NCBI GenBank assembly: GCA_028690555.1 | Contig: JAQVBA010000001.1 | Span: 1 to 43,618, forward strand | DNA from: Acholeplasmataceae bacterium | GTDB lineage: Bacteria; Bacillota_I; Bacilli_A; Acholeplasmatales; Acholeplasmataceae | DNA: 43,618 nt | Direction: 5' to 3' | Part shown: in pieces, positions 39,715 to 39,798 of the stretch | Layout: each line of letters begins with the position of its first letter | Position numbering within the stretch: position 1 is the first letter of the stretch | Made by a program: the position numbers and the translations under genes | The notes under the pieces: model-generated | Told to the model about the DNA's origin: nothing | Seen by the model: only the letters and a program-made list of their open reading frames with translations | The model's database searches: none

Positions 39715-39798
39715 TTTTAAATAGAAAAGAGTCTCCCACAAATAGGAGACTCTTAGGTGTGCCCTTTTATATTATATCAAATGATTCTTAAGTTTCAA
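39715..39798 (-). promoter_or_regulatory. pyrG promoter plus leader attenuator, probable CTP-sensitive reiterative-transcription control
   Basis: -35 TTGAAA 39798-39793, 16-nt spacer, -10 TATAAT 39776-39771, predicted start GGGC at 39764-39761, terminator stem 39754-39745/39736-39727. Confidence 0.75.
39721..39754 (-). terminator. pyrG leader attenuator terminator
   Basis: AAGAGTCTCC-TATTTGTG-GGAGACTCTT (10 bp perfect) then TTCTAT, located between predicted TSS and pyrG RBS. Confidence 0.8.

Follow-up and report, generated by a model that had tools for sequence, protein, structure and literature searches.

A candidate CTP-sensing attenuator ahead of pyrG in an Acholeplasmataceae bacterium, and a putative dinucleotide-slippage class among the pyrG leaders of Bacilli

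The CTP synthase gene pyrG of Bacillus subtilis is reportedly regulated by CTP-sensitive reiterative transcription attenuation, according to Meng, Turnbough and Switzer in 2004, a study cited in PMC4448216 and PMC4403831. The same description of B. subtilis pyrG is given in PMC4403831, and extra 5' G residues on pyrG transcripts have been observed by RNA-seq in Streptococcus agalactiae (PMC4448216) and S. pyogenes (PMC6431027). Reiterative transcription at pyrBI, codBA, upp and galP2 has also been listed (PMC4448216). Based on its layout and conservation, the pyrG leader of an uncultured Acholeplasmataceae bacterium is very probably a transcription attenuator that senses CTP in the manner of B. 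subtilis pyrG.

The window, that is, the whole stretch of 43,618 nucleotides that was analysed, belongs to a 1.32-Mb assembly of 149 contigs. The pyrG product is a CTP synthase (Pfam CTP_synth_N, 6.8e-127; GATase, 1.3e-40), and the closest PyrG, 95% identical, is from an Acholeplasmataceae MAG. Between an rpoE-like gene and pyrG sits an ORF of 207 aa (39811-40434, minus strand), the N-terminus of which has a weak similarity to Imp-YgjV, under the curated cut-off, and this slot varies in relatives. The sole Rfam match in the window is a tRNA gene (26842-26927, minus strand).

Table 1. Parts of the pyrG locus, in window positions
Feature	Position	Strand	Remarks
pyrG, CTP synthase, 533 aa	38094..39695	-	ATG at 39695; ORF and Pfam
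-35 hexamer TTGAAA	39793..39798	-	16-nt spacer to -10; letters and promoter scan
Extended -10 TGATATAAT, TG-extended	39771..39779	-	TATAAT at 39776-39771
ATAAAA between -10 and GGGC		-	6 nt
GGGC, predicted start and slippage site	39761..39764	-	6 nt past -10
Sequence after GGGC, before Shine-Dalgarno: ACACCTAAGAGTCTCCTATTTGTGGGAGACTCTTTTCTATTT		-	
Terminator 5' arm AAGAGTCTCC	39745..39754	-	Scan, covariation
UCUCCU, predicted poly(G) pairing site	39744..39749	-	Early-fold energies, pyrimidine-only loop-proximal pairs
Terminator loop TATTTGTG	39737..39744	-	8 nt
Terminator 3' arm GGAGACTCTT	39727..39736	-	Hairpin -17.1 kcal/mol
U-rich tail TTCTATTT	39719..39726	-	
Shine-Dalgarno GGAGG	39705..39709	-	9 nt before ATG

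A sequence-only reading had described this leader as TTGAAA, 16 nt, TATAAT, 6 nt and GGGC, and every base lies where it was claimed (Table 1). The C that it named as fourth transcribed base is read in GGGC at 39764-39761, taking the start predicted from the -10, and UCUCCU, complementary to poly(G), is present in the 5' arm and loop. The perfect 10-bp hairpin proposed to precede the ribosome-binding site was recovered by the terminator scan, which counts 12 pairs by including two loop-closing pairs (U-G and A-U), and it is the one terminator in the 1.2 kb scanned (shuffles 0.4, sd 0.6). The best-scoring promoter in the scan is that of the pyrG leader (11/12), and TATAAT-N5-7-GGGC has a single match in the 1.32-Mb assembly, at pyrG (two in the backward-read control). 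CU does not run unbroken through the 5' arm, which offers only about six pyrimidines, a point against the attenuator reading; the arm contains UCUC.

For this leader we infer the point of initiation, the slippage, its dependence on CTP and the readthrough as follows. Polymerase would initiate at GGG and, with ample CTP, add C at +4 and elongate, so that the hairpin would terminate most transcripts ahead of pyrG. With scarce CTP it would pause before the C, allowing GGG to slip on the CCC template and gain extra 5' Gs. The resulting poly(G) would then pair with the emerging UCUCCU before the 3' arm exists, and capture of the 5' arm would leave the terminator unfolded and pyrG transcribed.

The layout is widespread in Bacilli. 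A protein-level collection of PyrG relatives, covering named genomes and 395 from the class plus two families, yielded 228 distinct pyrG upstream regions, of which 250 nt were examined; many of the genomes are MAGs. A -10-like hexamer followed by GGGC occurs in 115 distinct pyrG leaders, with 6-nt spacing in 99/115, in a set whose members are related and not independent and whose starts were placed by their spacing from the -10. YYCC ([CU][CU]CC) is found in 105 of the 115, compared with 64.7 in shuffles, and a terminator in all but three of 168 GGGC or GAGC leaders. The rest of the 228 regions have no GGGC or GAGC start, e.g. Ca. Phytoplasma phoenicium (L054); in other start-less regions the upstream sequence looks coding (several genomes) or the leader exceeds 250 nt (some Staphylococcus). 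Among close relatives of the window's organism the leader is almost unchanged, TTTGATATAAT being common to nearly all close Acholeplasmataceae relatives, and it remains with pyrG while the upstream gene differs. The recurrence of the layout, the enrichment of YYCC, the retention of the leader with pyrG and the covariation of the stem described below all support the B. subtilis-type reading.

Several leaders depart from the common form. Four (L035, L048, L052 and L269) are GGGCACCCCC leaders with a C5 run directly past the start; the usual UCUCC arm plays no part in their terminators, and poly(G) and the C run would form a tight hairpin. Five others (L041, L049, L050, L193 and L219) have GGGCGC at a spacing of 5 nt, with an additional GCGC complement ahead of the terminator, and L051, L062 and L023 have two Gs only before the C in the same place (AAGGCAC, CAGGCAC).

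Covariation was scored over an 11-pair stem in 20 leaders from the family and close relatives. Standard pairs make up 94.5% of the stem (shuffled 88.5, sd 0.9), seven pairs are changed on both sides (shuffled 3.3) and the covariation score is 0.368, compared with 0.246 shuffled and 0.200 for the best slid version; because the 20 sequences are related, these shuffles do not amount to a probability. The 5' base of the outer pairs is mostly a purine, and in the loop-proximal pairs the 5' base of every paired cell is a pyrimidine (C or U), a polarity that is needed for poly(G) pairing and not for a terminator alone.

The sequence-only reading had also suggested that poly(G) could pair with the arm, as it does in B. 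subtilis to cause readthrough, and here the folding energies divide. Prior to synthesis of the 3' arm, the early fold of the templated leader is at -2.3 kcal/mol, and 3, 8 and 12 extra Gs, paired to the UCUCC element, bring it to -8.4, -8.8 and -10.8 kcal/mol. The complete terminator, however, is not out-competed at equilibrium: it is kept in the full-length minimum-energy fold at any number of Gs, and equilibrium folding was therefore rejected as the mechanism. In the Gracilibacillus and Staphylococcus leaders folded for comparison, extra Gs likewise stabilise the early fold, and the full-length energy shifts little. Since the terminator wins at equilibrium, antitermination must in this model be kinetic, with poly(G) capturing the 5' arm first; this dependence on folding kinetics counts against the attenuation model.

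A second type of leader, outside the window, carries (A)GAGC at the place of the start, a change from GGGC that is expected to kill G-slippage. It was found in 56 pyrG leaders from five families (f22, which includes Candidatus Izemoplasmatales MAGs, f17, f12, f13 and f5), and it takes the place of GGGC in whole clades (L034, L036, L059, L045, L086-L109, L164-L185, L221, L272 and L275-L311). The number derives from 59 calls minus three spurious ones (L075, L135 and L246); apparent GAGC in L065, L075 (Staphylococcus), L135 and L246 was rejected as being without a plausible start with UCUC. L246 (f5) reads GAGGGTAAATAACTCTCTC, with no C past the G run, yet has a long (CU)n arm.

UCUC, which complements (GA)n, is the sole 4-mer present in all 56 leaders, or in 54/54 without L107 and L109, which came only from a pattern search already containing TCTC. 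It lies 6-20 nt from GAGC, a variation which argues against one rigid inherited block. YUCUC occurs in 55/59 GAGC calls (shuffles 8.3, sd 2.7) versus 31/115 GGGC leaders, and YYCC in 25/59 GAGC calls, at shuffle level (23.6). The gain from a (GA)5GC head is -7.8 kcal/mol in GAGC leaders versus -2.3 shuffled, and -5.2 versus -2.6 in GGGC leaders. In f12, UCUC is present in 15/15 leaders despite differing terminators (mononucleotide shuffles, mean 1.5, maximum 6, 2000 rounds), and in several of them (e.g. L275, L278, L279 and L288) all or most of it falls inside the predicted terminator loop, a position not imposed by stem pairing. Four f12 leaders (L108, L109, L277 and L282), ~30-45 nt long, may control termination and translation as one: the likely Shine-Dalgarno, GAGG in the 3' arm, overlaps the terminator, and the U-tract directly adjoins the start codon.

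A 134-row PyrG tree requires five changes between the GGGC and GAGC types, four of them forced by well-supported branches, and in an independent-pairs test about 2.5 of four pairs agree and none is opposite, a number of pairs too small for significance. An A precedes GAGC in 55/55 tree rows and GGGC in 63/79; before GAGC, the slipped GAG would gain a second base pair from an A in this position. A scan of the class for -10/AGAGC/TCTC gave one match per genome in 27 genomes, all but three adjoining pyrG. At S. agalactiae starts, di- and trinucleotide reiteration occurs (AU, 15%; PMC4448216).

On balance, these patterns favour a sister class that would work by dinucleotide (GA)n slippage, spanning at least five Bacilli families, with four to five switches between G and GA on the PyrG tree. 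Transcripts would begin at (A)GAGC and, at low CTP, polymerase would stall before the C and slip by two on the AG repeat, adding GA units. The (GA)n tail would then bind the conserved UCUC, frequently as GYUCUC, the partner of GAGAGC, and block the terminator. Whole clades combine GAGC with a matching UCUC, and the window's own arm contains UCUC; a GGGC-to-GAGC mutation may therefore not simply abolish function in every leader. No earlier report of dinucleotide slippage at pyrG was found in the literature searched, coverage of which was incomplete, and a (GA)n stutter at pyrG is possibly a new variant.

It is improbable that the hairpin is an attenuator sensing something else, be it through a protein or ligand on the CU-rich arm or through unslipped, templated GGGC or GAGC pairing with the arm. 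Conserved pyrimidines in the arm could mark a binding site; however, the arm changes in step with the first transcribed bases, YUCUC going with GAGC and YYCC with GGGC, and an Rfam search of the window at gathering score gave no PyrR element or other leader family at pyrG. G(C/U)UC, a possible partner for templated GAGC, is present in many GAGC leaders, but GYUC would suffice for such pairing, yet UCUC is found in 56/56 and GYUCUC in 45. We give still less weight to the hairpin being a mere terminator of the upstream gene, with pyrG unattenuated. The upstream ORF is on the same strand and ends just ~46 nt ahead of the predicted pyrG start, but the promoter separates that gene from the hairpin, and from hairpin to Shine-Dalgarno there is no space for another promoter. 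Moreover, the same order is found in more than 160 pyrG leaders whose upstream genes differ, and in L016 the upstream gene has its own terminator, ahead of the pyrG promoter. That promoter-like and hairpin-like sequences came together by chance, as AT-rich DNA might allow (nine promoter-like matches in the scan versus 7.2 expected), can practically be dismissed given the single occurrence in the assembly, the compensatory stem changes and the position, spacing, GGGC and terminator kept across Bacilli.

The comparison supports the addition of an Acholeplasmataceae case to the known B. subtilis-type switch, and feedback of CTP on CTP synthase by polymerase stuttering, without a regulator protein, would extend to this family. 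Should dinucleotide stuttering hold for GAGC leaders, the repeated unit would co-evolve with the element it targets, and the natural paired variants would make the slippage and antitermination model directly testable. Going from GGGC to GAGC, which is expected to abolish the switch, would then open a way to another version of it.

Among known systems, PyrR-type attenuation of pyr operons also places a terminator in the leader of a pyrimidine gene in Gram-positive relatives, but requires the PyrR protein and binding loops (PMC4403831), and no such element is present in the window leader. The pyrG leaders of S. agalactiae and S. pyogenes are closer, with a similar start that shows G reiteration and a terminator upstream of pyrG (PMC4448216, PMC6431027); there the extra Gs have been seen by RNA-seq, whereas the window leader is known from sequence only. 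B. subtilis pyrG shares the GGGC start, the terminator before the Shine-Dalgarno and a CU-rich 5' arm that can pair with poly(G), and differs in its host, that of the window being an uncultured Acholeplasmataceae bacterium. The window leader is also shorter than those of Bacillaceae and Staphylococcus relatives. At pyrBI, codBA, upp and galP2, start-site slippage is likewise coupled to nucleotide supply, but UTP is sensed and slippage gives unproductive transcripts or a shifted start, whereas the extended transcripts of the window leader would be productive, preventing termination.
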